From Parabacteroides sp. PF5-9 (lineage in GTDB: Bacteria; Bacteroidota; Bacteroidia; Bacteroidales; Tannerellaceae): DNA of 64,000 nt. The notes under the pieces are model-generated. The model did no database searches, had not been told where the DNA came from, and saw nothing but the letters and a program-made list of their open reading frames with translations. The stretch lies in the NCBI RefSeq assembly GCF_029893105.1, contig NZ_JARXWG010000005.1:62001-126000 (forward strand). The letters run 5' to 3'. Both the position numbers and the translations under genes were made by a program. Shown here piece by piece: positions 7,683 through 39,678 of the stretch. How positions within the stretch are numbered: position 1 is the first letter of the stretch; each line of letters starts with the position of its first letter.

Positions 7683-7702
7683 TAAAAAACACTCAAAAAA
7701 TT

Positions 7703-8326: not shown

Positions 8327-8333
8327 GTGTGGT

Positions 8334-8621
8334 ATGATACGGAAAATCATTCAACGTGTAAACGAGTGGTTGGAAGACCGCTTGCGAAGTATTGTCAGAC
8401 CTCTAAGCCCTGATGCACGGGTAATCGTAATCGTTACGATGCTAATAGTATTCAGCGGGCTGTCTATCTACATGACTGTTTCTTCCATTTACAATTTAGG
8501 TAAAGACAAAGGACAGGAATTGCAGATAGAGCAGATAGAAACCCTGAAACTGCAACAGCAGCAAAGGGATAGTATTAACAATCAAAACAGATTTTATAAT
8601 GGAACAGGAGAATTTGAATAG
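8334..8621 (+). CDS. traL: TraL, DUF3989 small membrane protein
   Basis: The 95-residue protein has one clear membrane segment (about residues 32-52) after a basic, amphipathic start, and a Gln-rich helical tail. Size, position and the LSPDARVIVIVTML stretch are those of TraL/DUF3989. Its last 23 bases overlap the start of traM, so the two are translationally coupled. Its biochemical role is not known. Confidence 0.85.
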   Translation: MIRKIIQRVNEWLEDRLRSIVRPLSPDARVIVIVTMLIVFSGLSIYMTVSSIYNLGKDKGQELQIEQIETLKLQQQQRDSINNQNRFYNGTGEFE

Positions 8622-9963: not shown

Positions 9964-10009
9964 TAACACCACTAAAAAATCAATGTTTAACGAATTAAAA
10001 ATTAAAAGT

Positions 10010-14300: not shown

Positions 14301-14398
14301 AAAACTTTACCTATAATAAGTTGTAATATACGCATATAGCTGTTGCGAGTTTGGATAAAAATTGCATATTGTCCATTTCATTAAAATCATATAGTGTT

Positions 14399-15628
14399 AT
14401 GGACATGTCAAATCTTAAACTCAAACAACATTTGTTGATGGATTATTTATCCAAAGTAGGTTACTGCGCCAATAAACGGCGTAGTATTGAAAAATGTATC
14501 GAACTGGTTCTGATTAAAGGTAGCTCTTCCAGTATTACCTCTTATGAAGATTTATTTTTTCAAGAAGTGAAAGAGCAAGGCTATACTCCCGAAGATTATC
14601 GTTTTAAGTCCCTAAGAACGAACCTAGGGCAACTGAAAAATTTTGATTTATACGATAAATATCCTGATGGCAATTACACTGGATTTATTTACACTACAAA
14701 TGGCTTTGATAATCTCAATGACTATTACAAATCATTGGCTATATACCATTTAGAGAATGGTACGCGTAACGGAAAACGCAAAAACACAGTTAGGGTAGAG
14801 TATCTTTCAGCAATTCTATTTTACAAACATTTTCAAGATAATGGAGCGGAAGTATTGGAAAAAGCTACATCTAAAATGATTTGTTCTTTTTTTCATGATG
14901 GTGTTAAGCAAATCAGAGGGGTTGGTTATTTAGGTCATATAAGAGCATTAATGAAAACTCTTAAATTGCGTGAACCAAAAGTGGCTGATTATATACTCAA
15001 CTTTTTACCCAAAATACCAAAGGCATACAAAAATTTGGAATTTCTTTCAAAAGATGAATCTGACCGTATTCGGAAGTGTCTTGAAAATCCTGACAATACA
15101 TTGTCCTTAAAAGAGCGTACAATAGGATGGCTTTTGTATTTTTATGGACTGCGAGGCGCTGACATAACGGCTATGTGTTTTGACAATATAGATTGGAGAA
15201 AAGACATGATCACTCTAATTCAATCAAAAACAGATTATCCTCTTACATTGCCTTTAAATGCAGTTACAGGAAATTCTCTTTTTGATTATATCACTACCGA
15301 AAGGGCTGAATCTGATATTAAAACGATATTTGTCCCCCAGAAAAATCCAAATGCACCATACAAGAAGATTGCTTATATTGTCCAGAAAATCTTCAGATGT
15401 GCGCATGTCAGAGATAAAGGAGGAAGCAAAGGAGTCCGTCTTTTTCGCCATCATTTTGTGACTTATCTCCTTTCGTGTGGCGTTGAATGTTCAGTCGTGT
15501 CATCTCTGACCGGACACATATCTCCCGAGTCTCTCAAGTTTTATGCAGATGCCGACTATGAGCATCTCAAGGAATGCTCTCTTGATATATCTTCTTACAT
15601 CGTACCCTCTAATCTTTTCGACTTATGA
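14399..15628 (+). CDS. RIT recombinase 1, tyrosine site-specific recombinase
   Basis: The ATG at 14399 gives 409 residues; a TTG at 14351 would add 16 but lies inside the inner end repeat. The N-terminal half is a core-binding domain. The catalytic domain shows the Arg I region YFYGLRGADITAM, a box II RLFRHHFVTYLL, the STLTGH-like SSLTGHIS and the nucleophile region LKFYADADY. It is the first of the trio and ends in ATGA shared with recombinase 2. In RIT elements all three proteins are thought to act together. Confidence 0.88.
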   Translation: MDMSNLKLKQHLLMDYLSKVGYCANKRRSIEKCIELVLIKGSSSSITSYEDLFFQEVKEQGYTPEDYRFKSLRTNLGQLKNFDLYDKYPDGNYTGFIYTTNGFDNLNDYYKSLAIYHLENGTRNGKRKNTVRVEYLSAILFYKHFQDNGAEVLEKATSKMICSFFHDGVKQIRGVGYLGHIRALMKTLKLREPKVADYILNFLPKIPKAYKNLEFLSKDESDRIRKCLENPDNTLSLKERTIGWLLYFYGLRGADITAMCFDNIDWRKDMITLIQSKTDYPLTLPLNAVTGNSLFDYITTERAESDIKTIFVPQKNPNAPYKKIAYIVQKIFRCAHVRDKGGSKGVRLFRHHFVTYLLSCGVECSVVSSLTGHISPESLKFYADADYEHLKECSLDISSYIVPSNLFDL

Positions 15629-16605
15629 CATATCCATTCAAATCCAAACTATCTTCAAAGTTTGAAGAATTTGCAGCTATTTGCATTGCGTCCGGTCGAT
15701 GGAATAAGACCTATGACTACAACCTGCATCACTTCGACAAATACATCGCAGCTAACTACCCCTCTTGTGAAAAATTGACAATGGAGATGCTGGACTGGTG
15801 CAAACGCAGAGAAACGGAAAGGAACAATACTTGTATATCAAGGACTACACCTGTCCGAAACTTCCTTAAATATGCTAACAAGAAAGGCTGGTCAACCTTA
15901 AATCCTTTGCCTTTGCCCACTTTTGAAGCCAGCTCTTATATGCCACACTTTTTTACACAGGGCGAACTTTCTGCATTTTTTAAGGAATGTGACTCTTATG
16001 TAATACGATCATATCAAGAACACAGACAAATAACCACCTTATTGAATCGATTACAACTTCCTGTTTACTTTCGTATGCTATACAGCTCTGGGATGCGTAC
16101 ATGTGAAGTCCGGTGGCTAAAATGTTCTAATGTCAATTTCAAGTCTGGCGTCGTAAAAATCATAAAATCTAAAAGTATAGATGAACATAACATTGTTCTT
16201 CATGATTCTATGTTACAATTACTTCAACATTACAACCAAGCTATGGAGAAAGTTATGCCTAATCGGATTTATCTTTTTCCTGATAAGAATGATGAACCGC
16301 ATAGGGTACGTTGGGGATGCACTTTCTTTAGAAAGATATGGTCTAAAGTTAGCAATGAAAAGGCTGTTGAATATGATTTACGCAGTTTGTATGCCGTCTC
16401 CAATATTTCTAAATGGGAAAATCATGGATACGAATTGAGCGGCAAACTCTTGTTCCTTTCCCGTAGCATGGGGCACAGAAATATACAAAGTACTTTTGGC
16501 TATTTTCATCTTACCCCGATGCTTACGGATAAACTTAAATGCAATTGCTCTAAAAAATTTAGTGAATTATTACCTCAAAAGCCAGAATATAATGAAAACA
16601 TCTAA
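15625..16605 (+). CDS. RIT recombinase 2, tyrosine site-specific recombinase
   Basis: The product has 326 residues and overlaps recombinase 1 by four bases. The catalytic domain shows YSSGMRTCEVRWLKC (Arg I), SRSMGHRNIQST and the tyrosine segment FGYFHLTPML. Box II reads YDLRSLYAVSN, where the usual first histidine is replaced by tyrosine, so its chemistry may be weaker or need a partner. Its 3' end overlaps recombinase 3 by 14 bases. Confidence 0.85.
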   Translation: MTYPFKSKLSSKFEEFAAICIASGRWNKTYDYNLHHFDKYIAANYPSCEKLTMEMLDWCKRRETERNNTCISRTTPVRNFLKYANKKGWSTLNPLPLPTFEASSYMPHFFTQGELSAFFKECDSYVIRSYQEHRQITTLLNRLQLPVYFRMLYSSGMRTCEVRWLKCSNVNFKSGVVKIIKSKSIDEHNIVLHDSMLQLLQHYNQAMEKVMPNRIYLFPDKNDEPHRVRWGCTFFRKIWSKVSNEKAVEYDLRSLYAVSNISKWENHGYELSGKLLFLSRSMGHRNIQSTFGYFHLTPMLTDKLKCNCSKKFSELLPQKPEYNENI

Positions 16606-17653
16606 ATCAAGTGGCGCATTAGCCACTCAAAATCGTAAAATGGCAAAATTGATTTATGACTGGCACACCATATATGTGCCATCCGTAAAAACAACAAGTG
16701 AACACACATTACGTTCTTACAAACTGTCATTGTCCCTATTTCTCAGATACCTACAGTTAGAAAGAGGCATTACATCGTTAACCCTTACTCCGGAATGTTT
16801 CTCTGTTGAAGTCTTAACGCAATGGCAGATATGGTTGAAAAAAGAGCGACACGTCAGTGCAACAACTTGCAATATAAGAATGGCTGCTATTAAAAATCTG
16901 ACAAAATATATTAGTGGTCAGATGCCGGAGTATGCTTATATTTATATGGCAGTTTCGGAGTTTATAAAACCAATGCGGAAGGTAAAACGCATTGTACATG
17001 CTATGACACGGGATGCGGTAAAGGCTATTTTTGCAGTACCTGATACAACTACGAAAATAGGTTTACGGGATTTGACTCTAATGATGCTCAGCTATGGGGT
17101 TGCAGCGCGTCTGAACGAAATACTCTCTTTGACAGTCAAAGACATAGTACTTGACAACGTTAAAGACCCATATGTAATATTATGTGGAAAAGGAGGTGGT
17201 TTCAGGTCAATCTACTTGCATGATGACCTTGTCGAATGGTTAAGACTGTACCTTAGAGTTTTTCATGGCGATAAACCCAATAAAGATGCTTTATTGTTCT
17301 ATTCTCCATGCAAAGGATGTATGGGGAAATTGACACAACCGGCAATAGCGAAACGTCTCAGGTTGTATGCAGCCAAAGCACATGAAGCATGTCCTGATGT
17401 GCCTCTGGATCTACACAGCCACCTTTGGAGGCATAGTATGGCTACCCATTGGCGAGAAGATAATATCAATATTGTTGAGATAAAAGAACTTTTAGGACAT
17501 CGTAATCTCTCTACCACTATGATATACGAGGATGTAACTGAAGAACAGAAGAAAAAGGCGATTGATACACTGGAAGACACTATTACTAAATCTCAAGAAA
17601 AAAAATGGGGAAAGTTAGAAAATATGGAACTTCTTACTCTTGTAGGGCTTTAG
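16592..17653 (+). CDS. RIT recombinase 3, tyrosine site-specific recombinase
   Basis: The start at 16592 (353 residues) is chosen because it lies just upstream of the recombinase 2 stop, the coupling used by RIT trios. It has a SAM-like N-terminal core-binding domain, an Arg I region SYGVAARLNEILSL, a textbook box II HSHLWRHSMATH, LLGHRNLSTT and the tyrosine in MIYEDVT. It is the most canonical recombinase of the three. The stop is 72 bases before the right inverted end. Confidence 0.9.
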   Translation: MKTSKSSGALATQNRKMAKLIYDWHTIYVPSVKTTSEHTLRSYKLSLSLFLRYLQLERGITSLTLTPECFSVEVLTQWQIWLKKERHVSATTCNIRMAAIKNLTKYISGQMPEYAYIYMAVSEFIKPMRKVKRIVHAMTRDAVKAIFAVPDTTTKIGLRDLTLMMLSYGVAARLNEILSLTVKDIVLDNVKDPYVILCGKGGGFRSIYLHDDLVEWLRLYLRVFHGDKPNKDALLFYSPCKGCMGKLTQPAIAKRLRLYAAKAHEACPDVPLDLHSHLWRHSMATHWREDNINIVEIKELLGHRNLSTTMIYEDVTEEQKKKAIDTLEDTITKSQEKKWGKLENMELLTLVGL

Positions 17654-21683: not shown

Positions 21684-22871
21684 TCATATTGCCTTTCTCC
21701 GTTCTATCAATCTATCCATATCCTCCGAAATCTTATCATCGGTTACTTTAGCATAGGTTTGAGTGCTTGTAATATTCGTATGCCCCATCATTTTGCTGAT
21801 ACTCTCGATAGGAATACCAGCCGAAAGTAAAAGTGTCCCAAACGAATGGCGACTTTGATGATAGCTTAGATTGCCTTTTACTCCGGCAAGGAAGCCTATT
21901 TCGTTAATACAGTACCATAACTGGTCGCGGTTGGGTAATGGGAAAACAGGCTTGGTATCATCCGTTGTATTATATAGCGATAAAATCTGTTCGGCTACCG
22001 GATGCAGAGGGATAAAGGCTTCAACATCGGTCTTTTTACGGTTGATTTTTATATAACGCCGTCCATCGGCTGTTTTTCCTATATGGTGGGGATATAACCC
22101 TTTTATATCAGCATAAGCAAGTGCGGTAAAAGTGGAAAAAATAAATGCTCTGCGAGTTAATTCCTGCCATTTGTCGGGCATGGGTCTTTCCATAATCGTT
22201 TTCAACTCGTTTCTGCTGATATGATGCAACTTTGGAGCAGCTTTCTTTTCATACGGCACATCGGCAATCGGATTAAACCGAAGTATCTCCCTATCAACAG
22301 CAATGTAAATAAGCCGATTCAGCCAAGTAAAGCAATGGTTGATATGTCCCGGACTGTAACCTTTGCCCTTTAAATAGAGTTTATACCCCTCTCCGAACTC
22401 TTCGGCAATGTCTGTAAAGGCAATATCTTTCAGCTTCCGGGTAAGAAGGAATCCACGCAGGTTACTTTGAGAAACCTTAGATTGACGATAGCTGGAAGTT
22501 GAGTTGATTTCTAATGAACGCAACCTCAACCGCTCACGCTCTTCTTCTCCGGCTTCCAATAACATTATCGGAACAGAATTTACTTCGGTAATCGTATTTT
22601 TAAGCAATTCTGCACTGATAACGCCCTGCTCTTTGAGGATTTTTTCATAGGTCTGTTCAATCCGCCCACGAAAGGCTATCAGTTCATTGTTCGCCCTTTC
22701 TTCTTTAATCCCGCCTTTGTTACTGTTCCAATTACAGGGATTACAAAAGATGCCTGTCGAAATAACTGTTTGCTTGTTATCAACTGTAATGCGACACATA
22801 ACAGCCGTTGTTCCGTCTGCCTTTATTTTGTTCTTATTGATATAGAATAATATTTTGAATGTACTACGCAT
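21684..22871 (-). CDS. IntDOT-type tyrosine integrase 1
   Basis: The 395-residue protein begins with an arm-binding domain (FKILFYINKNKIKADG), then a core-binding domain and a catalytic domain. Box II is YHQSRHSFGTLLL, followed by KMMGHTNI and the tyrosine in TQTYAKV. At Arg I the sequence reads FTALAYADIKG, with alanine where most tyrosine recombinases have arginine; the same loss is known for IntDOT. It forms a pair with the gene at 22892-24118, 20 bases upstream. Which of the two catalyses integration of element A cannot be told. Confidence 0.9.
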   Translation of the reverse strand: MRSTFKILFYINKNKIKADGTTAVMCRITVDNKQTVISTGIFCNPCNWNSNKGGIKEERANNELIAFRGRIEQTYEKILKEQGVISAELLKNTITEVNSVPIMLLEAGEEERERLRLRSLEINSTSSYRQSKVSQSNLRGFLLTRKLKDIAFTDIAEEFGEGYKLYLKGKGYSPGHINHCFTWLNRLIYIAVDREILRFNPIADVPYEKKAAPKLHHISRNELKTIMERPMPDKWQELTRRAFIFSTFTALAYADIKGLYPHHIGKTADGRRYIKINRKKTDVEAFIPLHPVAEQILSLYNTTDDTKPVFPLPNRDQLWYCINEIGFLAGVKGNLSYHQSRHSFGTLLLSAGIPIESISKMMGHTNITSTQTYAKVTDDKISEDMDRLIERRKAI

Positions 22872-22891: not shown

Positions 22892-24118
22892 TTACAGAAC
22901 TAATTTTAAATCTTGGGTTGCTTCGATATACTTATCCATATCCTCAAAGAGTTTCTTCGGGGTAACACGGGCATATATCTGTGTGGTCTTTATATCCGAA
23001 TGACCGAGCATTTTGGAAACGGTTTCGATAGGTACGCCAGCTTCGAGCGTAATTAAACTCGAAAACGAGTGTCGCCCCATGTGATAGGTCAGCACCGGAA
23101 TATCGAGCATTTGACGTATGCTTTGTAGATTCCATTTGAGCGTGTTGTACTCCATCTTAGGGAACAATGTCTGTCTTGACTTGTTCCTGTATTTTTCGAT
23201 AAGTTCAATAGCTTCGGGAAGCAATTTTACCCGGCAAAGTTTACCGTTCTTGCCTCGCTGATATTTGAGCCACAGGTCACCTGCATCATCTTTAGACAGG
23301 TTTTCGTTTGTAATGGCTACTACATCGACATAGGCAGTCCCTGTATAGCAGGCGAAAAGAAACATATCGCGGGTGGTATTGTGCGACCATCGGTGTTCTT
23401 CAATCTCCAAATCCCGTATTTTCTCAAACTCTTCACGGCTAAGGGTTCTCGGAGGGTTCTCTTTCTGCTTTAGCAAGGGATAGTTCGCAAAGTAGTGTTT
23501 ATCGGAATATCCTTCTTTAAAGGCTATCCGGCAAATCTTTTTCAGTAGTGCCAGATAGTGGCGTGCGGTTTCCACACTCAACCCTTTATCAAGAATTATA
23601 TAATCCTGAAATTCCCGTATAAACTGCTCGTTAAGCTGGCTGAACGCAAGGTCTGACGAGTTGGAGTTTTTCTTGATAAATTCTGTCAATCGCTTGCGGG
23701 TATAAAGATAGTTCGGCAGGGTGCGGTGTGATACATCTATACCGACACGCGCTTTTACTTCTTCGATATGGCGGTCGAAAAGCCGCATCAAAGTCATTTG
23801 TGTTGCCATCCCACCCTGAAACAGATTTTTCACGGCTTCGGCATCGAAAGGCTGTTTTCGTTCAATGAGTGTGTCGTAAGCCTCATTGACGGCAAGAAGC
23901 AATTTATCCAACTTTGCGTTGGTTGCCACTGCCTCGTGGCTTTTCCCGTCCAGACGGCTCGCGCGTGGATTCCACAGAGAGGGGGTACAGGAGAGTTTGG
24001 AACTGAACTGCGCCATCGACTGGCCGACAGTGATACGCCCCATGATCGGGGTCTTGCCCGACTTGTCGGGAGAACTCTTTTTCAGGTAGAGTAACACCTT
24101 GAATTTTTCTTGTTTCAT
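22892..24118 (-). CDS. IntDOT-type tyrosine integrase 2
   Basis: I chose the ATG at 24118 (408 residues, MKQEKFKVLLYLKKSS); the frame's earlier Met at 24163 overlaps the -7 box. Arm-binding, core-binding and catalytic domains are present. Arg I is again missing (CYTGTAYVDVVAI), box II is YHMGRHSFSSLI, then KMLGHSDI and the tyrosine in TQIYARV. It is transcribed toward integrase 1 on the same strand. Its promoter region holds an 11-bp hairpin and marks the likely end of element A. Confidence 0.9.
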   Translation of the reverse strand: MKQEKFKVLLYLKKSSPDKSGKTPIMGRITVGQSMAQFSSKLSCTPSLWNPRASRLDGKSHEAVATNAKLDKLLLAVNEAYDTLIERKQPFDAEAVKNLFQGGMATQMTLMRLFDRHIEEVKARVGIDVSHRTLPNYLYTRKRLTEFIKKNSNSSDLAFSQLNEQFIREFQDYIILDKGLSVETARHYLALLKKICRIAFKEGYSDKHYFANYPLLKQKENPPRTLSREEFEKIRDLEIEEHRWSHNTTRDMFLFACYTGTAYVDVVAITNENLSKDDAGDLWLKYQRGKNGKLCRVKLLPEAIELIEKYRNKSRQTLFPKMEYNTLKWNLQSIRQMLDIPVLTYHMGRHSFSSLITLEAGVPIETVSKMLGHSDIKTTQIYARVTPKKLFEDMDKYIEATQDLKLVL

Positions 24119-24138
24119 AACACTTATAATTTTATGGG

Positions 24139-24169
24139 CTTTGCTGTCAATTTCTGACAGCAAAGTTAC
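24139..24169 (-). promoter_or_regulatory. Integrase promoter with leader hairpin and att-like core
   Basis: CTTTGCTGTCA (24139-24149) pairs perfectly with TGACAGCAAAG (24155-24165). On the minus strand 24160-24169 reads GTAACTTTGC. This contains a -7 box (TAACTTTG) and also fits the CTnDOT att core pattern GTAnnTTTGC. The two readings cannot be separated here. The rest of 24170-24430 shows no ORF; I see no other clear structure in it. Confidence 0.45.
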
Positions 24170-24434
24170 CAGTTATACAAGTGCTCTTGATTACGCAAAA
24201 TACTGTATGTCAGCACAAAAGAATCGATATTGAAATTCTTCGGTCTGCTGTTAGTTACCTATTTTTATTCGGTAACTGGCAAGCTAACGATTTGGTAACT
24301 GAAATACTGTGTAAATCTGCTTCGGTTTGAATATTTCAGTTTACCGCAAATCTTCACAAATCAACTCATTTCAAACGTGTTAGCTATTCTACTTCTTATC
24401 TCTTCTAACCCTTGCTTTTCTGCTTTTTATCCAT

Positions 24435-24632
24435 ATGGCCCGCCACAGCTTCGGAACGATTATGCTGACCAAGGGCGTTTCTATTGAAAGTGTTTCAAAG
24501 ATGTTAGGACATACAAACATCACTACCACACAGATTTATGCGAAAGTTCTGAATCAAAAAATATTCACAGAAGTGAATAAGGTGAGAGGGGAACTGGATA
24601 GCTTGGCTAAGTATTATAAACAACGAAAATAA
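24435..24632 (+). pseudogene. C-terminal remnant of a third tyrosine integrase
   Basis: Homology to an integrase begins abruptly at the histidine codon at 24432. It covers the box II RHSFGT, KMLGHTNI and tyrosine segment TTQIYAKV, then the natural C-terminus. Everything N-terminal, including the arm and core-binding domains, is missing; the in-frame sequence upstream (LLFI-like) is unrelated. It is closest in pattern to the integrases beside it but is on the opposite strand. It appears to be what is left of element B's integrase after element A inserted. Confidence 0.8.
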
Positions 24633-24727
24633 TTTCTAAAACTGAAATTCATTCCCCAAATAATGAAGTTCATCAGAAAATCAGGAGATTTACCCTGAAT
24701 CTCCTGCAAAAAATCTATTTTTGAGCT

Positions 24728-25753
24728 ATGGTTAAGAATAAAAAAGTAAATATAAAACATGCTCTTATTTTTCTGTTTGCCACACTGCTTTACGCTTTGT
24801 GTCAAATGCTTTTCAGTGCTATTCTGATGAAAGAAGATTTAGGGGATAAATTTCTGATTCAGTTACTATCCCACTATATCGTAATCTTTACCATGTGTAT
24901 CGCAGATTACATATTATTACTATTCCTGAATAAGTATATACCTTATTCCAAAAACGTACTATTCCGTATCATAGCGGACTTTGTGGGGGTAATCGTAATA
25001 TGCCTGATTGTATTAGGTATGTTCAATTACCTGATATACGATATACTTCTTATCTCAAAAGATGGGCTGCCTTCTTTTCTTGTCAAATTTGCATTTGGAA
25101 TGACAAACAATATTCCGATCCTGTTGGCATTTGAACTGATCCACTACTTCCAGTCCGAACAAAAAGCCATCGCCGATTCCGAAAAAGCAAAACGTGAAGC
25201 ATTGCTGTTCGAGCATGAAACGCTGAGGGCACAGATAAACCCACATTTTCTGTTTAACTCTCTGAATGTGTTATCGTCATTAATCTATATGAATCCGGAC
25301 AATGCGAATAAGTTTACCAAAGCCTTATCAAAGACCTACCGGTATGTGCTTTCTTTGAATAGGCGACCAATGGTTTCTGTTGAAGAAGATTTGGATGCGC
25401 TGGAATCGTATATCTTTTTGATGGAAATGCGGTTTGAGAACTCTTTTACTTTCACGGTAAACAAAACGTGCGCCAGTGAAAAGAAGATGATTATCCCACT
25501 TACCTTGCAACTGTTGATAGAAAACGTATTCAAACATAATGTAGCAACCGAAGAAATGCCATTGGATATAAAAGTTGCTATCGAAAATGAATACATTACG
25601 GTTGAGAACAATATCCAACCCTCGAATGATGTGGATAAAGGCGGAATTGGGCTGAAATACCTAACGAAGCAATATAAAATGTATGCCAAAGATGTAGTAG
25701 TCGAGCATACACCCCAACTATTTATTGTAAAAATCCCCTATATACAGCAATGA
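24728..25753 (+). CDS. LytS-type sensor histidine kinase
   Basis: The 341-residue protein has four or five membrane segments in residues 12-135 and a His_kinase-type (PF06580) core. The phospho-accepting H173 lies in INPHFLFNSLNVL. The ATP-binding part includes LTLQLLIENVFKHN (N box) and a GGIGLKYL G box near the end. It has no extracellular sensor domain, so it probably senses within the membrane. Its stop overlaps the regulator gene by four bases (ATGA). It belongs to the cargo of element B with the regulator and two downstream envelope genes. Confidence 0.93.
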   Translation: MVKNKKVNIKHALIFLFATLLYALCQMLFSAILMKEDLGDKFLIQLLSHYIVIFTMCIADYILLLFLNKYIPYSKNVLFRIIADFVGVIVICLIVLGMFNYLIYDILLISKDGLPSFLVKFAFGMTNNIPILLAFELIHYFQSEQKAIADSEKAKREALLFEHETLRAQINPHFLFNSLNVLSSLIYMNPDNANKFTKALSKTYRYVLSLNRRPMVSVEEDLDALESYIFLMEMRFENSFTFTVNKTCASEKKMIIPLTLQLLIENVFKHNVATEEMPLDIKVAIENEYITVENNIQPSNDVDKGGIGLKYLTKQYKMYAKDVVVEHTPQLFIVKIPYIQQ

Positions 25754-26505
25754 AGTACCTGATAGTAGAAGATGAGCGATTTGCATACGAAGAATTAAAA
25801 CGTATGTTGACAAATTTACGTCCCGATTATTTGTTAGAAAAGCGGACGAAAACAGTCATAGATACCATTGCGTTTCTGAAAACTTCTGCTGTCGATCTGA
25901 TTTTGTTGGATATACGGCTTGCAGATGGCAACTGCTTCGAGATATTCAACTATGTAGAAGTTTCTACACCTGTGATATTTACCACTGCTTATGATGAACA
26001 TGCTATCAAAGCATTTAAGTTGAATAGTATTGATTACCTGTTAAAACCTTTTAATGAAAAGGAATTAGAGGCGGCATTAGTCAAGTTTGAGAATATCTTC
26101 CATAATAATTCTCATAAAACTGATCCTAAGAATTTTGAGCAGATATTAGCTGCCAAAAATAAAAATCGTTTTCTCATTTCGAAAGGGGAAAACTATCATT
26201 ATATAGAAACGGCGGATATTGCTCATTTTTACAGTGAGGAAGGAGTTGTATTCCTGCACACATTTCAAAATAAACGATATATCATTAATTACACCTTAGA
26301 CCAGTTGGAACAGCAACTTGACAGCCGTTTGTTTTTTCGCGTATCGCGTAATTGCATTGGTAATGTGAAATCAATCGAAAATGTAGCTAAATACTTCAAC
26401 AGTCGTTTGAAACTCTCCTTTTCTCCCGCATGTCCTCACGAAGTGCTTGTCAGCCGTGTGCGTGTACCCGACTTCCTGAAATGGATGGACGGGATTTTGG
26501 AATAG
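25750..26505 (+). CDS. LytTR-family response regulator
   Basis: The 251-residue protein has a receiver domain (acidic E7-D8, phosphorylated D54 in ILLDIRLAD, T near 78, K near 97 in YLLKPF) and a LytTR DNA-binding domain from about residue 150 (FYSEEGVVFLHT, FFRVSRNCIGNVKSI). It is the partner of the kinase it overlaps. A terminator lies 26 bases after its stop, and the outer-membrane gene starts about 170 bases later, so that gene may be its target rather than part of its transcript. Confidence 0.94.
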   Translation: MKYLIVEDERFAYEELKRMLTNLRPDYLLEKRTKTVIDTIAFLKTSAVDLILLDIRLADGNCFEIFNYVEVSTPVIFTTAYDEHAIKAFKLNSIDYLLKPFNEKELEAALVKFENIFHNNSHKTDPKNFEQILAAKNKNRFLISKGENYHYIETADIAHFYSEEGVVFLHTFQNKRYIINYTLDQLEQQLDSRLFFRVSRNCIGNVKSIENVAKYFNSRLKLSFSPACPHEVLVSRVRVPDFLKWMDGILE

Positions 26506-26530
26506 TCCTCATATTTTTTTCTTTTTATAC

Positions 26531-26559
26531 AGGGTATGGAAAATTCCATGCCCTTTTTT
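26531..26559 (+). terminator. Terminator after lytTR regulator
   Basis: AGGGTATGGA pairs with TCCATGCCCT (one G-T wobble) around a four-base loop, followed by a T-run to 26559. Confidence 0.85.
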
Positions 26560-26674
26560 CTGCATTCCACTTTACCGATTCTGAACTCCATGGTTATTGG
26601 CTTTTGGTATTACTCCATTCATCGTTCTTTTGCTAAGAAATAAAGTGAGTATAAACTAAATAAATGTAGAAATC

Positions 26675-27592
26675 ATGAAGTTAACATCATTGTTCTTTGT
26701 AGTATTGGGAACTCTTCTATGTCTGGAAGGGAAAGCACAACAATTATCATTCAAAACCGAATATCTCGGAAATTCAGGTTATTATTTTCTACCACCGGGT
26801 GAAAAGCCAAGAGAACGGATTGGCGATGCCAAAGGCTCCGCCGTTGTCTATCAAGGAGCATTCAACATGCCTCTATCCGTGAAACTGAATGAGAACAATC
26901 GTCCAACTGCATGGGGTATTGGTCTTGGCGGGTCGTACACTTCGTTGAACAACAAAAATTTCACGGATCACATGGTTTCCGAAATCATGAATTTACAAGT
27001 AGGACTTTACCACTTACGACCGTTAAACGACAAATGGTCGATGCGGGCAAGTGCGGGCGTGGCGGTACTCGCTCCTTCCGCAGACCTTTCTAAAATCAGG
27101 TTCAAGCACGTACTTGGAAGCGGAGGAATTATCTTCATCCGCCACCTGAAACCAAACCTGTCTATTGGAGGCGGTGTGGCTATCAATAGTTCATTGGGCT
27201 ATCCGATGATATTTCCTGCCGTGTATCTTAATTGGGAACTTGATGGGAAGTTCGATGTGAATGTAGAGCTGGTTGAAGGTTTAGACGTATCAGCAGGTTA
27301 TAGTTTCAACGATTGGTTTAAACTATCGTATGCTTTAGAAATGAACGGACAAGCAGCTTTGTTGGAAAAGGATGGCAAAGATGTCATATTCTCCCATCAA
27401 TACATCACTACAGGATTTCGTCCCGAAATAAAAATCAGTAACGTATTATCCATAACTGCTATGGCAGGACTAAACCTGTACCGCCCGGCTTCCTACAGCG
27501 ACAGAACTCTAAAAGGAGTCTTTGCAACGGATAACGACTATTATTTTCAAGCCTCACCCTATTTATCTGTCGGACTAACCGTAAATTTTTGA
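26675..27592 (+). CDS. Outer-membrane beta-barrel protein, DUF6268-like
   Basis: The 305-residue product has a signal peptide ending in LEGKAQ. Alternating strands with Gly and aromatic residues run through the whole body and it ends in a strand with a terminal Phe (LSVGLTVNF), the outer-membrane insertion signal. The pattern fits the DUF6268 group of Bacteroidetes barrels; that label is from memory. It lies between the LytTR pair and an acyltransferase gene, suggesting a regulated envelope cassette. Confidence 0.75.
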   Translation: MKLTSLFFVVLGTLLCLEGKAQQLSFKTEYLGNSGYYFLPPGEKPRERIGDAKGSAVVYQGAFNMPLSVKLNENNRPTAWGIGLGGSYTSLNNKNFTDHMVSEIMNLQVGLYHLRPLNDKWSMRASAGVAVLAPSADLSKIRFKHVLGSGGIIFIRHLKPNLSIGGGVAINSSLGYPMIFPAVYLNWELDGKFDVNVELVEGLDVSAGYSFNDWFKLSYALEMNGQAALLEKDGKDVIFSHQYITTGFRPEIKISNVLSITAMAGLNLYRPASYSDRTLKGVFATDNDYYFQASPYLSVGLTVNF

Positions 27593-27772
27593 CGAGCCGA
27601 CTTCTTAGGAATTATACTCATGAATGAATTATCAAAAGAGAGTCTTTTCTTCCTGTTGACTCAATTCTCACAAGTAGTATTTGTGCTTATAGTGGTTGTA
27701 ATCACTTCAATGCAATTATCAACAGAAGAAAAACCAGTGAGTAGCTATCACAATAATCTATATATCTTAAAA

Positions 27773-28642
27773 ATGAAACAAATATTACAAATCATTGCTT
27801 GCAAAGGTATTTATGGTATTGTCTATATCATAAGCTTACTGCCAATGACATTCTTATATGCAATAGCATCCGTCACATTTTTTCTCGCTTATCATATTGT
27901 CGGATATAGAAAAACAGTCGTAATCCAAAACATCTCACGTTCTTTTCCCGATATGAAATACGGAGAAATCCGCTGTGTAGTAAAGAAATTCTATACCTGC
28001 TTTACCGCCTACTTTGCCGAAATACTTAAAAGCATATCTGCTCCGGCAGAGGTTCTTGATAAGAAGATAACGTTTGAAAATTTGGAACTTATAAACAGGT
28101 ACATGGACACCGGACGGAATGTTATTGCTTGTCTGGGGCATTGTGGAAATTGGGAAATGCTGAACTTTATGCCCTATAAACTTCTCCACGATATATATGC
28201 CGTTTATAAACCTCTGCGATCTGGCATAATGAACAGATTGATGATTAAACTCCGGTCGCGGTTCGGTATGAAGCTGATACCCGACAAATCGGTTACACGT
28301 CATATTCTGACAAAGAAATCATCATCTGCTGTTTACTTATTTCTGGCCGATCAATGCCCTCGGATAAAAGAAGATAAATACAAATTTGAATTACTGAATC
28401 AGGAAACTTATATTTTTTCAGGTATGGAGAAACTGGCACGTATAAGTCGGTCGGCAGTCATCTACCTTCATATTACTCAGCTATCAAAAGGAAATTATAA
28501 AGTAACGTGTATTCCCATATGCTCCGATGCAGAGCCTACGAATGAAGGAGAAATAAGCCAAAAATATGTTGATTTACTGGCGGAAAATATCAAGGAAGAG
28601 CCATACGGCTGGTTATGGACACATAAAAGATGGAAAAGATAA
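27773..28642 (+). CDS. LpxL/HtrB-type lysophospholipid acyltransferase
   Basis: The ATG at 27773 gives 289 residues and a natural membrane-anchored start (MKQILQIIACKGIYGIVYIISLL). The frame extends back to 27620, but the extra 51 residues look unlike the family. The catalytic HX4E motif is GHCGNWE near residue 125, followed by a KPLRSG-like acceptor site and FLADQCPR. The family transfers acyl chains to lipid A precursors or to aryl polyene and ornithine lipids. It is 180 bases downstream of the outer-membrane gene. It ends with TKRW-like basic residues as family members do. Confidence 0.85.
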   Translation: MKQILQIIACKGIYGIVYIISLLPMTFLYAIASVTFFLAYHIVGYRKTVVIQNISRSFPDMKYGEIRCVVKKFYTCFTAYFAEILKSISAPAEVLDKKITFENLELINRYMDTGRNVIACLGHCGNWEMLNFMPYKLLHDIYAVYKPLRSGIMNRLMIKLRSRFGMKLIPDKSVTRHILTKKSSSAVYLFLADQCPRIKEDKYKFELLNQETYIFSGMEKLARISRSAVIYLHITQLSKGNYKVTCIPICSDAEPTNEGEISQKYVDLLAENIKEEPYGWLWTHKRWKR

Positions 28643-28709
28643 AACAATGATCTGACAATAATCTCAAAAAAATATAATTATGGACAGTTCTTAAAAATTA
28701 AAACGAAAG

Positions 28710-28723
28710 CCACTAAAAAATCA
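28710..28723 (+). promoter_or_regulatory. Recurrent leader motif CCACTAAAARATCA, copy 4
   Basis: CCACTAAAAAATCA, 74 bases before the RteC-like start. It matches the copies in element A at 2200, 5465 and 9969. Confidence 0.35.
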
Positions 28724-28796
28724 AGGATAGACTTAGCAATTGACTTATGATATCGTATGAACTTTCTTTTGATTACATCTTAAAAAACAATTGTAT

Positions 28797-29439
28797 ATGA
28801 AAGAATTATTCGACACGAAGTTATTCAGTCTATTGTCTGAAGCTTCAACAGTAACAAACCGTGAAATACAGAATGCCTATGGGCACTTTATGGAACAAAT
28901 AGAATCTATTGGTCAATTCGAAACTGATTTCTCGAAAATCTTTCGATTATTGACTTATTCTCGTATAGAGCTTAAAACATTACAAACACAAATTTTATAC
29001 GAGCAGGGAAAAAAATGCGCTCAAAAATCTCTATATCCAAAAAGCAATATGGTTCCTTGAATCTGAAATTGAGTTATTAAAACTCAAAATTCACTCCCCG
29101 CAATCACTTCAACAATCAATTGAGCAGACATTTAAATCTACTTTATCACTCATACCTAAATTTCCGAATCTGGGAATAATGGGCATGACAGAATTACTCA
29201 CTTCTATAGAATTGTTAGGCGGTATTGATGAAGCAGGTAAAAATCCTTCAAAAATAGCATTTGCCAATGTTTTTGAACAGAGTTTTGGATTCAGTTTCAA
29301 TGATATTTATGATTGCCAAAGAGAACTTTTCAAACGAAAGCCTTATAATCTGACTAAAACACTTGATGCCTTAAAAGCAGTCCTTGTCAAAGAATATAAT
29401 AAACGAAAAACTCAAAGAGATAAAGATGAAAAAAGATAA
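28797..29439 (+). pseudogene. RteC-like regulator interrupted by a frameshift
   Basis: The first frame runs from the ATG at 28797 to a stop at about 29060. A second frame continues through FLESEIELLKLKIHSP and NVFEQSFGFSFNDIYDCQ to a natural end at 29439. The two join if one A is removed from the run of seven at 29009-29015. The C-terminal LTKTLDALK region recalls RteC-family regulators, which control excision and transfer in CTnDOT elements; this identification is tentative. The change may be a mutation, a sequencing error in a homopolymer, or programmed slippage. Confidence 0.65.
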
Positions 29440-29476
29440 TTCTGTAATCAGCTGATATACTATTTCTTATGAATTC

Positions 29477-29514
29477 AAAATAGAGGGCCTATACCAGATA
29501 CCTCTATTTTTATT
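29477..29514 (+). terminator. Terminator after the RteC-like gene
   Basis: AAAATAGAGG pairs perfectly with CCTCTATTTT across a 14-base loop, then TATT. Clear Rho-independent form. Confidence 0.85.
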
Positions 29515-29589
29515 ACCTCATTCTACCGAGCTTTGCCATACCAATGCATTGGAATTAATTGAGTTATTAATTTCAAAACAAGTAAAATC

Positions 29590-29922
29590 ATGTATATCAA
29601 TAACGAAGATTTTGAAAAATGGATGCAGAAGCTATCCAAGAAATTGAATGAAATCGGTCAAGGCTTAAAATCACTGATTAACACAAGCGAAGTATTCAGC
29701 GAAGAGGAAAAACTGTTGGATAACCAAGACTTGGCATTTCTCCTGAAAGTATCGTATAGAACGCTCCAACGGTATAGGACAAGTAAGAAATTACCCTATT
29801 TCATGATCGCTCACAAAACCTACTACCGCACTTCCGATGTACGGGAATTTGTCCGTAGCCACATGGATTTCCATACTTGGCAGGAATTTGAGAAACAGAC
29901 GGATTCCAGCAAAAGTACCTAA
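29590..29922 (+). CDS. Helix-turn-helix excisionase-like protein 3
   Basis: The 110-residue protein has a helical N-terminal half and the MerR/excisionase-type HTH with DNQDLAFLLKVSYRTLQRYR and a YYRTSDVREFV wing. It is the same family as 21026-21304 and 21311-21607 but in element B. In its own element it sits between a regulator remnant and the mobilization genes. It may act as a recombination directionality factor or transcription regulator. Confidence 0.8.
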   Translation: MYINNEDFEKWMQKLSKKLNEIGQGLKSLINTSEVFSEEEKLLDNQDLAFLLKVSYRTLQRYRTSKKLPYFMIAHKTYYRTSDVREFVRSHMDFHTWQEFEKQTDSSKST

Positions 29923-30048
29923 GTTTCACACAGAACTCTCTCCAACAAATATTTTTCTTTTCGAACGTCCCCTCACCAACCCCTGGGGGACTTTGAAAAG
30001 GAAAATATTTCATTTAAAATCTGAATCTTGGATATTTCATTGATGAGT

Positions 30049-31329
30049 TTATATCTGCCTACCCGGTTTTCGTCTTTTTGCTTTCCGCTGCCGTTGCTTT
30101 TCTTCATATTCTTTCTCTTTAGCAAAAGCGATGTCTTCATAATTATCACCCTGCGGCTCTATATCGAAGATACCGAACAGACTTGAAGCAGCATCCATAA
30201 CACCAGACATATTTAGGGATTGAGAAGATGACTTTTCCACTTGAGATTTGTGATTGACTTGTTGTTCCGGTCTTTCTTCTTTCACTGGAGAGTCTTTGAA
30301 TAAATCCTGAAACTGATTGGCAGAAAACTCTTTCCCTAAGCGCGAACCGTTAAGAATAGCCTGATTCTTGTAGTCGATAAATGTAACTCCATAAATGCGT
30401 CCTTGTTCGTTTTGTCGGAAAATGGCACCGATATTTTTCTCTTTCAACAGCAACTTAAAATCATCTATATTATTAGCATCTTTCATCGCTTTGGCAATTA
30501 TCGGACGAAGGCTTTCCCTTACCCTATTTTTCTCGATAGCTGATTTGGAGTGCTCAAAATGCTTTTGCATTGCATCATAGCCGACCAATTTACCAAACTT
30601 GGAGGATTTAACCGGCACACCGATTTTATCTCCTTTGTCATCTATTACAGAATAAATCAATCCCTGATAGGGCTTGCCTTTATATTCGCCTTTTACTTCT
30701 TCCACCGTTATATTGAACTGCTCCAATAGTGTCCGGTATTCTCCGAATGACTGAAAATAGAAATGGCTCATTACCGATTTAGCGATATTACCCATCTGAT
30801 GTTTTATATCTCCCGCTTTATAGTCTATCTTCTTTGTCGGGGTATCACTTTCACGCTGTCCTTTCCTTAGCGGAATAAGATTAAACTCTTGTTCCAGTTC
30901 CTTGCATATTTTCATGGAACGGGCAACTTCATAGCTATCGTTTATCTTCTTGCCGGTTTCATCAATCCGTAAGGAAACGATATGTGCGTGTGTACGATCT
31001 ATATCTGAATGTTTAAAAACAATATAAGGTTGATTCCCATACCCAAGTTTCTCCATATAACTTTGAGCAAGTTCTGATAGTTGCTCATCCGATAGTTTAT
31101 CTTTCGGGTCAGGATTGAGTGAAGCATGGAATACGACCTTTTCAGTTCTGTTGTTTATCGCCAGATAAGGATAGAACGAATCCATACAATCATGAATAGA
31201 GAATTTTCCGTCAGGAGAGTTAAACATCTTCTGGCTGTATAATACATCTGCCTGATTGTCTTTCACCTTGATTTTGTTATAGGCTAATACCCCGAAAACG
31301 GATTTACCCGAACTTATTTTGGCAAGCAT
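30049..31329 (-). CDS. MobB-like relaxase
   Basis: The 426-residue protein starts MLAKISSGKS and has a candidate catalytic Tyr at residue 17 (VLAYNK). The HUH-like metal site is HSDIDRTHAHIV (H107, H114, H116). These match the MobB/MobA relaxases (PF03432) of Bacteroides elements, which nick oriT and lead the strand into the recipient. The C-terminal third is Lys/Arg-rich (KQRQRKAKRRKPG). It overlaps the MobC-like gene by 16 bases. A VirD4-type coupling protein gene normally follows here; none is present. Confidence 0.88.
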   Translation of the reverse strand: MLAKISSGKSVFGVLAYNKIKVKDNQADVLYSQKMFNSPDGKFSIHDCMDSFYPYLAINNRTEKVVFHASLNPDPKDKLSDEQLSELAQSYMEKLGYGNQPYIVFKHSDIDRTHAHIVSLRIDETGKKINDSYEVARSMKICKELEQEFNLIPLRKGQRESDTPTKKIDYKAGDIKHQMGNIAKSVMSHFYFQSFGEYRTLLEQFNITVEEVKGEYKGKPYQGLIYSVIDDKGDKIGVPVKSSKFGKLVGYDAMQKHFEHSKSAIEKNRVRESLRPIIAKAMKDANNIDDFKLLLKEKNIGAIFRQNEQGRIYGVTFIDYKNQAILNGSRLGKEFSANQFQDLFKDSPVKEERPEQQVNHKSQVEKSSSQSLNMSGVMDAASSLFGIFDIEPQGDNYEDIAFAKEKEYEEKQRQRKAKRRKPGRQI

Positions 31330-31760
31330 CTTTCCCGGATTTGAGTGTATAAATCTTCTATCTGGCTTTTTAACAGGATAAAATCTAGTGTTGTTTTCTC
31401 GATAATTCTCATCATTGAACGGGCTTTTTCTTCCCCTAAATTCCGAATCAAGACTTGAAAGGCTTGGTTATAATTGCTCTTTATCGCCCGAAACTGCGCA
31501 AAGAATTGGGACAACAACATTGCAAAATCCATTGTCGGTTTATTTATCGAAACGATTTTTACCGGATTATTCAGGATACAATCCAGTATAAACTGGGACT
31601 TACTTTTATGTCCCGACTTACAGAACAAGGATAGAAACCGTTCGTTATCTTTGTTATTCAGGCGTATCATAGGGCGGTAAGTCTGCTTATCTGCTTTAGG
31701 TTTACGCCCTCTTTTCTTTTTGAGCCGTCCTGCTCCATTATTAACATGTTCCATGTTCAT
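31314..31760 (-). CDS. MobC-like relaxosome accessory protein
   Basis: The 148-residue protein has a basic start (KKKRGRKPKADKQ), a ribbon-helix-helix-like segment (YRPMIRLNNKDNERFLSLF) and a helical remainder. This is the pattern of Bacteroides MobA/MobC accessory proteins that bind oriT and recruit the relaxase. Start at 31760 or the second Met at 31754. Its 5' end faces the hairpin-rich candidate oriT, as expected. Confidence 0.8.
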   Translation of the reverse strand: MNMEHVNNGAGRLKKKRGRKPKADKQTYRPMIRLNNKDNERFLSLFCKSGHKSKSQFILDCILNNPVKIVSINKPTMDFAMLLSQFFAQFRAIKSNYNQAFQVLIRNLGEEKARSMMRIIEKTTLDFILLKSQIEDLYTQIRERCLPK

Positions 31761-31799
31761 TAATCTTGAATTTATTCTTTAAAAGGTTCGACTTGGGAG

Positions 31800-31926
31800 A
31801 ACCGCCCCCAACTTGCGAGTTTGGGCAAGAAATGTTTTTGGAGGAAGAAAATGGAATTTTTCGCTGACAAAAACACTTCTTGCTATTGTCTGACGACAAT
31901 AAAATCCGCCGGCATTGGCGGACATT
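31800..31926. other. Candidate oriT
   Basis: The gap between the divergent MobC-like and DUF3408 genes holds four inverted repeats: CCCAAC/GTTTGGG at 31807-31825; a 16-bp near-perfect pair (31825-31840 and 31868-31883, one mismatch); TATTGTC/GACAATA at 31884-31901; TCCGCC/GGCGGA at 31905-31922. Position and structure fit an origin of transfer recognised by the adjacent relaxase. The nick site is not identifiable. From 31927 to 32300 there is an untranslated stretch without further clear structure. Confidence 0.5.
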
Positions 31927-32300
31927 AATAGGAGCCGGAACGGTTATTCATTTATCGGGAGTTTTAAATCATAGATAACTCCCGGCTTTTCATTCCCGCC
32001 CAACAAAGATAGGGGATGAACTTCGCTTATACACAACAGAATAAGCGGACAGAAACGGTCAGTCAGTGCCACTTATACTTGATTCCAAAATCAGCTTTCT
32101 TTTATCGTTTTCTTTGTGGCATGAAAGCAAAAATGCAAGTCAGGATACAAGAAAAATTGTCTGTTTGCCTATTTGGCGATCAGTATGCAGATAGACAGAT
32201 GTGCGAATGTTCAAGTAATCAGAAACAGATACCTGAATAGCTGATTAAATGAATAAAAGAAGAATTGTATAAATGTGGGTAATCATAAAATCATTCATAT

Positions 32301-32759
32301 ATGGAAGAAGATAATCAAGTAAACAAAAAAGCAGGTGTGAAGATAGACACAAGTGCATTTATCCGTCAAGTCGCGGTTGCAGGCAGCACTGAAGAAATGC
32401 CTAAATCGACACAGGCAGAAAATCAGTTGGAAGTTGCCGGATACAAAACGAACACAGAACCGGAAATCTCCATTGAAGAAAAAACAAAAGAACCGCCCAA
32501 AAAGAAGCGGGGACAATCGGTAGATTATGAATCGGTATTTCTTTCCCGTAATGAACTTCGTAATCGGCAGGGATTGTATATCGACAAAGACAACTACGAA
32601 GTTCTTCAAACCCTTGTCCGCTCAATACGCAATGAACGGATTAGCGTCAGCGGATTGGTTGATAACATCATCAGCCATCATATCGAACTCTATGAAGATG
32701 AAATCAATCGTATCTACGAAGAGAACATCAAAAGGCCCATAAAAAGGAGCGGTAAGTAA
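32301..32759 (+). CDS. DUF3408-family protein, second set
   Basis: The 152-residue product has a disordered N-terminal half with KEPPKKKRGQS and a conserved C-terminal block with LYIDKDNYEVLQTLVRSI and SGLVDNIISHHIELY, homologous to 921-1391. Here it precedes the ParA gene instead of following it, so this tra set has a different gene order. The ParA gene starts 38 bases later. Confidence 0.8.
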   Translation: MEEDNQVNKKAGVKIDTSAFIRQVAVAGSTEEMPKSTQAENQLEVAGYKTNTEPEISIEEKTKEPPKKKRGQSVDYESVFLSRNELRNRQGLYIDKDNYEVLQTLVRSIRNERISVSGLVDNIISHHIELYEDEINRIYEENIKRPIKRSGK

Positions 32760-32797
32760 TTCATTTCAGAAACAGTATAAACTAAAAAAAGAGCATC

Positions 32798-33583
32798 ATG
32801 AGCAATTCAGAGAATCAAAAGCAAACAAGACCTGTGTATCTATCTTTCTGTACACAAAAAGGAGGAGCAGGCAAATCCGTCTTCACAACTTTAGTAGCCA
32901 GTTATCTGTATTATTTGAAAAACTATAATGTGGCTGTTATTGATTGCGACTTCCCACAATGGAGCATCCAGAAGATGCGGAGGCGGGAAGCGGAACAATT
33001 ACAAACTAATGCTTTTTATCAAAGGAAAGCGGAAACCCTGTTCACGAAATTAGGTAAACCGACTTATCCTATCGTTCCGACCGAACCGGAACAAGCTCTG
33101 ACAAGAGCAAAGGATTTTTTGGAAAACGAATCCGAAAAATACGATGTAGTATTATTCGACTTGCCGGGAACAGTAAACAATGAAAATGTAGTTGAGATAT
33201 TCTTTCAGATGGATTACCTGTTTGTTCCGATAACCACTTCTCGGATTAATATGGAAAGTACCCTACCATTTATCATTTCTATTAACGAGATGATAACCAT
33301 GAATCCGCAAGTTAGATTGAAGGGTATCTATCCGTTCTGGAACAGAGTAACGAATCGGGAAAGAAAAGAACTATTCAATTATTACGAAGAAGCTATTTTA
33401 GGATTAGGTATTTCCATTATGGAGAACCGCATCCCGCAAAGTGTCCGTTATGACAGAGAACAATCCATTGAGGGGAATGACTATCTGTTCCTCTCTACAA
33501 TATTCCCTCCTGATAAACCATTACTAAATGGCAGCAATTTGGATTTACTGATTGAGGAAATTATCAGAATAATCAATCTGTAA
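32798..33583 (+). CDS. ParA-family ATPase, second TraA-like copy
   Basis: The 261-residue protein has the deviant Walker A KGGAGKS at residues 21-27 and a Walker B-like VVLFDLPGTVNNENV. It is clearly homologous to the protein at 161-913 but diverged, so the two belong to different elements. It is followed by its TraD-like gene 2 bases later. A function in element maintenance or transfer regulation is inferred. Confidence 0.88.
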   Translation: MSNSENQKQTRPVYLSFCTQKGGAGKSVFTTLVASYLYYLKNYNVAVIDCDFPQWSIQKMRRREAEQLQTNAFYQRKAETLFTKLGKPTYPIVPTEPEQALTRAKDFLENESEKYDVVLFDLPGTVNNENVVEIFFQMDYLFVPITTSRINMESTLPFIISINEMITMNPQVRLKGIYPFWNRVTNRERKELFNYYEEAILGLGISIMENRIPQSVRYDREQSIEGNDYLFLSTIFPPDKPLLNGSNLDLLIEEIIRIINL

Positions 33584-33585
33584 AT

Positions 33586-34275
33586 ATGGAAGCGGAAAAG
33601 ATTAAAGCAATTCTATTGGCGACGGCATGTTTCTTTATGGCATGCCTGAACCTTTGGAATATCTTTAAAGATTGGTTTGATAAGAAGTGTCAATCAAGGC
33701 AGGAGGGTAATGACAAGAAGAAACGCTTGTCAACCAAAGAAGCGATACCGGATATTATCGGAAAAACGAAGTTTAAACTGAACTCAGATAATATCCCTAA
33801 GCAGACACAACCGGAACCAATAGAACCCGAAAACCCATTGAAAAAGGAAATCGCCGAATTGAAGGAACTGGTATTACAACAATCCAAGATGATAGAAGAG
33901 AATAAACCTTTTATGTCTGTCCCGTTGGAGAAAAAAGAACCTTCCGATATTGATCCGGACACGATAGATGAGGAAACGATTCCGGTTCTGACGGAAAAGG
34001 GACGGTCGCAATTCAGCACAGGAACAACACTTGATGAATTTGAATTGGTGGTCAAAACACTAAAAGGCAAACCAATCACAAAAGAAGAAGAAACGCGAGT
34101 CGAACAGATCATTCCCAAAATTGAAGGTACTGATATTTACAACCAATTTACCAAACAGATTCATGGTGCTGAGGAACGGGCAATGACGATCCTGAATAGG
34201 ATTGAGGATAACAAACAAGCTATGTCTAGCAATGAAGCTGACAATTTTGATTACAGGAAATTTGTTAGAGAATAA
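33586..34275 (+). CDS. TraD-like protein, second set
   Basis: The 229-residue protein has one membrane segment (about residues 8-27), the IIGKTKFKL motif near residue 60, an acidic/Gln-rich middle with a helical coiled-coil stretch, and a C-terminal domain with YNQFTKQIHGAEERAMTIL. It matches the TraD-like protein at 1395-2135. It is the last recognisable tra gene here: no TraE follows, and the sequence turns into the AT-rich cassette after about 34,300. Confidence 0.75.
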   Translation: MEAEKIKAILLATACFFMACLNLWNIFKDWFDKKCQSRQEGNDKKKRLSTKEAIPDIIGKTKFKLNSDNIPKQTQPEPIEPENPLKKEIAELKELVLQQSKMIEENKPFMSVPLEKKEPSDIDPDTIDEETIPVLTEKGRSQFSTGTTLDEFELVVKTLKGKPITKEEETRVEQIIPKIEGTDIYNQFTKQIHGAEERAMTILNRIEDNKQAMSSNEADNFDYRKFVRE

Positions 34276-34474
34276 AAAAATGGGAATACTGGATAAAAAA
34301 ATCAATGAATATCAGTTCTTTCTTTTAATTTCTATGGGGTGGTTGTGGAATATCCATATCTCATCTCGAACCTTACAGGGCGGGTGGGATACAAGCAAAT
34401 ACCGTTTATTCAGATTAAAGAGAAGATCCTGTATGAAGAGTCGGAGCTTTAAAAATGGTTATAAAGCTCGATTT

Positions 34475-34505
34475 ATTCTGGTAAGTAGGAATGACTTACC
34501 AGAAT
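34475..34505. terminator. Strong hairpin before the methyltransferase cassette
   Basis: A 12-bp perfect stem (ATTCTGGTAAGT with its complement, 34475-34486 and 34494-34505) with a 7-base loop and a short T-run. A smaller stem (GAGCTTTA/TAAAGCTC) lies at 34444-34469. They probably isolate the downstream operon from the tra transcript. Confidence 0.65.
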
Positions 34506-34533
34506 TTCATGTGCTCAAATCAATTTATATAAT

Positions 34534-34541
34534 TATATTTG
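34534..34541 (+). promoter_or_regulatory. -7 box for the methyltransferase operon
   Basis: TATATTTG fits TAnnTTTG and lies 20 bases before the ATG at 34561. No clear -33 TTTG box is seen. Confidence 0.5.
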
Positions 34542-34560
34542 CATTTAAATATAGAAGAGT

Positions 34561-39396: not shown

Positions 39397-39639
39397 TAAA
39401 AATCCTTCATCGGTAAAGCTTGCAAATTTTCGTTGTGATTATTTGGTTATTATTGATAAATTGAACTCCTAAAGCGAGCTCGTTTGCGAAAAAAACTACA
39501 AGATATTGGACTGTTAGTCAGGAGACGAGCTCCGAAAAGGAAATAAATATGAATTTTAACAATAAATCTGGATTACATTCCAAGAAAATGTAAATATTTT
39601 CGGATTAGAACGAAGGGTGTTCAAAGTCTCTTGTGGTTT

Positions 39640-39666
39640 GTCCGAAAAATTACATATAATTCGGAC
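39640..39666. other. Short inverted repeat between the cassette and AbiE
   Basis: GTCCGAA (39640-39646) and TTCGGAC (39660-39666) pair across 13 bases, just past the stop of the minus-strand AbiEii-like gene. It may be a weak terminator. The remainder of 39397-39639 shows no ORF or other clear signal. Confidence 0.35.
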
Positions 39667-39678
39667 ATATGAATCCTT

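Follow-up and report, generated by a model that had tools for sequence, protein, structure and literature searches.

The CTnDOT-type ICEs of Bacteroidales, with IntDOT-like recombinases and TraA-N transfer genes, are among the closest described systems to the element reported here. Other elements are known to seek the recombination machinery of mobile DNA, such as Tn5053/Tn402, the res-site hunters, which are transposons aiming at non-coding res sites. IME_oriT of Streptococcus targets the oriT of other ICEs (listed in PMC5704250), and Tn1806 nests, by experiment, in snf2 of ICESa2603-family ICEs (PMC12942858). In Prevotella intermedia OMA14, CTnPi2-a is reported to lie in an integrase gene that belongs to a degraded mobilisable transposon (PMC4755523); no integrase-targeting rule is described for it, as this is one case and the other copy lies in a tRNA gene (PMC4755523). 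In the open-access literature we found no element family that has the catalytic motif of tyrosine recombinases as its attachment site, the OMA14 case being the only mention we found of an element in an integrase gene.

We analyzed a stretch of 64,000 nucleotides from Parabacteroides sp. PF5-9 (hereafter the window; C5:62001-126000, C5 being a contig of the 3.69-Mb draft genome, which has 46 contigs and a Bacteroidales gene content). It contains most of a mobile element, B, and the right part of a second one, A. Element A is very probably a Bacteroidales ICE inserted site-specifically in box II of the integrase gene of B, and box II of tyrosine-recombinase genes very probably serves as attB for the whole clade of its terminal integrase, int2. 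We found no earlier description of such a rule beside the one isolated mention. Like CTnDOT-type ICEs, element A has tyrosine recombinases with arm, SAM_5 and catalytic domains (int1 and int2), a non-matching overlap at the crossover (6 of 6 pairs), and the Bacteroidetes genes for TraJ, TraM, TraN, a TraG ATPase and a coupling protein (T4CP), on account of which we consider it an ICE. By its genes we file it as a Bacteroidales ICE, and the target is what differs: unlike CTnDOT-type elements, A sits in a coding motif within the integrase genes of other elements and has two tandem integrases at its right end. We do not claim a likeness of this motif to the CTnDOT core site, since the geometry appears to differ. 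Element A resembles Tn5053/Tn402 in seeking the recombination machinery of other mobile elements and differs in that its target is the box II coding sequence and the recombinases found are tyrosine recombinases. Like IME_oriT, it aims at a conserved functional site in other conjugative elements, which for IME_oriT is oriT, not a recombinase gene, and lies in Firmicutes; with Tn1806 it shares the site-specific nesting of one ICE in another, there in snf2 and not in an integrase. CTnPi2-a, a single case, has in common with A its place in an integrase gene. Coordinates of all features are given in Table 1.

Table 1. Features of elements A and B. Plain numbers are positions in the window; C5 marks contig positions.
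Feature	Position	Strand	Remarks
Element B	C5:39125-103647		about 18.5 kb without A
Left copy of the 17-bp att repeat	C5:39125-39141		AATCCGTCAACGCCCAC
N-half of element B's integrase	C5:39432-40469	same as C-half	outside the window, 46 kb to the left
Element A, right part	1-24440		whole element about C5:40464-86440, about 46 kb
TraG, TraJ, TraM, TraN genes of element A	2938-10963
int1, second integrase of the pair	21684-22871	-	homologue in 72/80 named loci
int2, terminal integrase of element A	22892-24163	-	Arm-DNA-bind_5, SAM_5, Phage_integrase
Non-coding right end of element A	24164-24431		conserved GGTAAC-type hallmark near 24294-24303
attR junction of element A	24432-24446	+	element ends ...TTTATCCA; overlap about 24434-24440
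C-half of element B's split integrase	24432-24632	+	box II to stop codon
Box II (HMARH)	24432-24446	+	stop codon of the C-half at 24630-24632
Element B, remainder	24441-41647		integrase C-half, two-component genes, HTH, MobB relaxase, DNA methylase, AbiE pair
Relaxase of element B (Bacteroid_MobB)	30049-31329	-
Right att of element B	41631-41647		17-bp direct repeat of the tRNA-Val(TAC) 3' end, AATCCGTCAACGCCCAC

The original prediction held that an integrase C-terminus lies close to the integrase pair of element A, that it starts abruptly at 24432, and, as the simplest reading, that B's integrase gene was where A inserted. The fragment is real; 269 bases separate it from the annotated int2 start. 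Its frame translates as HMARHSFGTIMLTKGVSIESVSKMLGHTNITTTQIYAKVLNQKIFTEVNKVRGELDSLAKYYKQRK followed by a stop (first residues HMARHSFGTIMLTKGVSIESVSKMLGHTNITTTQIYAKV), the C-terminus of a tyrosine recombinase opening at box II without a proper start, and no integrase N-terminal sequence was seen upstream of 24432. At the DNA level, the match to intact copies of this integrase opens at 24440-24444, so the abrupt start was placed correctly to within the overlap of about 7 bases. A search of the same genome with the C-half returned 18 other integrase matches, and because all of them are weaker (top identity 62%), the fragment is not a copy of another integrase of this genome. It is 98% identical over 63 residues to the C-terminus of an intact integrase, L030, from genome G004.

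With L030 as the N-terminal query, the genome gave a single match, 95% identical over residues 1-346. This N-half ends in ...TTHCGRH followed by 7 residues and a stop, and lies beside the left end of A, where the original prediction had expected an integrase half ending at box II; the left flank is thus not unrelated chromosome. Joining the two flanks by script restored, again as expected, a full protein (407 aa, 95.3% identical to the L030 integrase), in which the N-half corresponds to residues 1-346 of L030 and the C-half to residues 345-407 by best alignment. The Pfam catalytic domain PF00589 is absent from the N-half alone and is found at 2e-18 in the joined protein; the N-half retains the arm-binding and core-binding domains and lacks the catalytic residues beyond box II. 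The L030 stretch provides the empty site, uninterrupted and beside the same tRNA-Val(TAC), and the intact integrase adjoins this tRNA-Val in two genomes other than the one studied. At the DNA level the left flank of A matches positions 52-1507 of the L030 stretch at 88% and the right flank matches from 1501 on at 86%. Set against the uninterrupted L030, the split gene therefore delimits element A (Table 1), and the comparison places A inside the integrase gene of B.

Among 23 homologues, the first invariant Met corresponds to residue 16 of int2, encoded by the ATG at 24118; this is the probable start, and for the same reason the TTG at 24163 is probably unused. Related elements share the right-end sequence 24164-24431 up to the junction, and at attR the host sequence runs from the CGC CAC (Arg-His) codons onward. 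As an ICE, element A would be expected to excise as a circle and transfer by conjugation; a search of the assembly for the circular junction did not find it. Within A, three tandem tyrosine recombinases at 14351-17653 (+) resemble the recombinase-in-trio (RIT) type and are possibly a third element. The left part of A, outside the window, carries cargo at C5:43084-50689. A single 1460-aa frame there encodes a CusA/CzcA-type efflux pump and, apparently fused to it, a TolC-like part; it is followed by frames for a membrane-fusion-like protein and for a metal-transporting P-type ATPase-like protein.

Element B, the host, looks like an IME in the 3' end of tRNA-Val(TAC), because it has a MobB relaxase and no Tra genes were seen in it. 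The tRNA gene lies immediately left of the start of the B integrase, and the right att sits just before rsgA, which is taken as chromosomal. The right end of B carries an AbiEii/AbiEi toxin-antitoxin (abortive infection) pair at 39679-41392. An apparent operon at 34561-39396, encoding a DNA methylase, a HATPase protein and a 440-aa protein, is possibly a defence system; PADLOC gave no match for the latter two proteins.

In a DNA search of 125 family genomes, right ends like that of A also ran into integrase C-termini elsewhere, and these differed in kind. A search for int2 relatives yielded 80 named loci in genera that include Parabacteroides, Bacteroides, Dysgonomonas, Tannerella, Porphyromonas, Alloprevotella, Phocaeicola and Barnesiella; the relatives placed in integrases by their flanks are spread across gut and oral Bacteroidales. 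C-halves were detected with a profile HMM built from intact integrase C-termini (E < 1e-3), used in place of a simple regular expression, which missed the real C-halves of L083, L092 and L036, where the later motif is TH and not GH. A C-half is present in 70 of the 80 named loci, nearly always from profile position 1-3, which is HxxRH, and 267-318 bases from the start of int2. As a control we ran the same scan on every integrase in the fetched loci with enough upstream DNA: 71 of the 83 integrases at least 55% identical to int2 are followed by a C-half starting from box II, versus 0 of the 90 below 55% (best hits of one scan, with loci of one species counted separately; a pattern, not a census), which excludes chance. 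The target C-halves fall into 36 groups when clustered at 75% identity, and the int2 tree requires 52 changes of target group; these counts and those for the 80 named loci have the same scope. The pattern thus points beyond a single nesting event to a rule for the whole int2 clade.

Left ends tell the same story. The left end of A has matches in 24 genomes, and at least nine loci have an integrase N-half ending in HxxRH, after which come a few residues coded by the element and a stop codon. Six elements had both ends on a single contig and could be paired; their joined proteins are full length and colinear with intact integrases. The clearest case is G033, whose N-half and C-half share their two best hits, ranked alike. 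An incomplete pair at G035:C9 was dropped as support: its halves do not look like one gene, the N-half reading HCGKH and the right side resembling a different, degraded recombinase. At one locus (L057, G113:C101, 17545-19457) the left end of a further A-like element interrupts an A-type int2 at box II, and the neighbouring right end carries an int2-type C-half; the A family has here inserted into its own kind.

In the aligned right junctions G.CA is invariant and GC is strong, which yields MGNCAYWCNTWYGC behind the box II codons, with CAY (or TAY) nine bases before it. The junctions fit an attB of CAY-NNNNNN-MGNCAYWCNTWYGC, that is, the codons H-xx-R-H-[TS]-[FY]-[AG]. Within subfamilies and among closely related right ends, identity on the element side reaches CA or TA and goes no further. 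Nearly every attL has AGR as its Arg codon, whereas attR may have any MGN, so AGRCAY appears to be supplied by the left end of the element. Between CA and AGRCAY, six or seven bases encode the two variable box II residues, and in 6 of 6 pairs attL and attR differ at 2-7 of the 9 positions of xxR; the overlap presumably need not match the target, as expected of a coupling sequence. In this genome attL has TGCGG (HCGRH, as in three relatives) and attR has ATGGCC (HMARH), possibly left over from an earlier host integrase. The right part of the site, MGNCAYWCNTWYGC, occurs 20 times in this genome, 8 times as an integrase box II, versus 12 occurrences of the reversed pattern as control. By contrast, 6 of the 6 sites with the full motif (CAY nine bases upstream) are integrase box II, so that the full site nearly defines box II and its right part alone does not.

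Members of the int2 clade without a C-half number 12 of 83, about 14%. Among the clade members compared by junction, those lacking a scored C-half are of several kinds: L133 and L167 have lost the right end, and L151 is a truncated integrase. L127, L186, L197 and L042 lie outside integrases, and each has the right-hand part of the motif at its junction (p 0.001-0.007, scored against 3265 windows); L087 has a degenerate candidate (p 0.04), the junctions of L148, L029 and L165 bear a weak likeness to the motif, and those of L145 and L152 bear none. In four more distant relatives of int2 (47-50% identity) the right end is of this type, but neither C-half nor motif is present.

These exceptions bear on the idea that the elements target more broadly and that insertions in integrases survive as the least harmful, by selection and not recognition. 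The short motif outside integrases and the clade members without a C-half favour it, and because MGNCAYWCNTWYGC alone is not rare, selection for harmless sites may add to recognition. Yet the position is nearly always exact to the codon, several non-integrase sites have the motif at their junction, and the element-side ends are constant. These three observations require sequence recognition, to which selection can only add, and we regard selection on its own as unlikely. A one-off nesting, in which low-specificity integration of A happened upon the B integrase, would suit the loose target choice common among Bacteroidales elements such as Tn4555 and Tn5520 (review PMC5704250). It is refuted by the difference between clade members and other integrases in the control scan and by the codon-exact box II start in 36 different target types, and is highly improbable.

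A DNA-inversion switch that swaps integrase C-termini would find a parallel in G113, with its int2 cut at box II and int2-type C-half at the right end; there, however, the cut int2 runs into another A-like left end, as in a nested or self-targeted insertion, and in the window int2 is intact, with gene order putting the N-half at a distance of 46 kb. We dropped phase-variable inversion when that left end was found; gene order refutes it for the window, and we consider it very unlikely. Integrase halves at the element ends are the hallmark of archaeal SSV-type suicidal integrases, in which attP lies inside int (PMC8371274), and the halves could accordingly be pieces of A's own integrase. Yet SSV-type integrases split their own gene, whereas A splits foreign ones and keeps its own: it has two complete integrases, the halves vary between elements and match intact foreign integrases (here L030), and the N-half lies outside on the left and the C-half outside on the right, the order of an interrupted gene. 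This explanation, dropped on gene order and refuted for this locus, is scarcely credible.

Under site-specific integration at box II, the integrase pair would excise A as a circle with the joint ...CA-overlap-AGRCAY..., and the circle would recombine with the box II codons of a resident integrase. The site CAY-NNNNNN-MGNCAYWCNTWYGC would most likely be recognised by int2, with or without int1. Strand exchange, and with it the predicted cleavage positions, would span about 6-7 non-matching bases, equal to the two variable motif residues, with the right end of A giving ...CA and its left end AGRCAY. The cut at box II precedes the remaining catalytic residues and would thereby lock the host element in place; as the N-half lacks the later catalytic residues and the C-half a proper start, B should not be capable of excision as long as A is in place. 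Precise excision would restore an H-xx-R-H integrase whichever copy of the overlap stays.

It is possible, and we put it tentatively, that the clade consists of integrase-hunting ICEs and IMEs that disarm their rivals, by cutting the active site, by locking, and through a dead N-half still binding att sites. Such disarming would be reversible on departure because the overlap falls on two tolerant codons, and genomes rich in mobile elements would then offer many landing sites. The landing site itself is the catalytic motif of an integration enzyme, in place of the usual tRNA genes, conserved housekeeping genes or loose AT-rich sites; inteins and homing introns likewise use conserved catalytic codons. 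Targeting of this kind provides a direct route to nested composite elements in Bacteroidales and makes interference between elements testable at a defined site. For annotation, an integrase C-half from HxxRH adjoining an integrase pair is a signature for locating both element ends, and many annotated integrase pseudogenes may be reversible interruptions and not decay.

Two further joints carry box II codons. At L124 (G492:C7, about 77620) an A-type right end meets a left end directly, with CATACTGCAAGGCAT (HTARH) linking the two and no integrase around them; the joint resembles one of tandem or attP type in which box II codons from a former host are retained. At L098 (G346:C1, about 1950545) an A-type left end follows CATCTTGCAAGGCAC (HLARH), and the surroundings are not those of an integrase; this may be a secondary site carrying overlap bases from the integrase of a former host.
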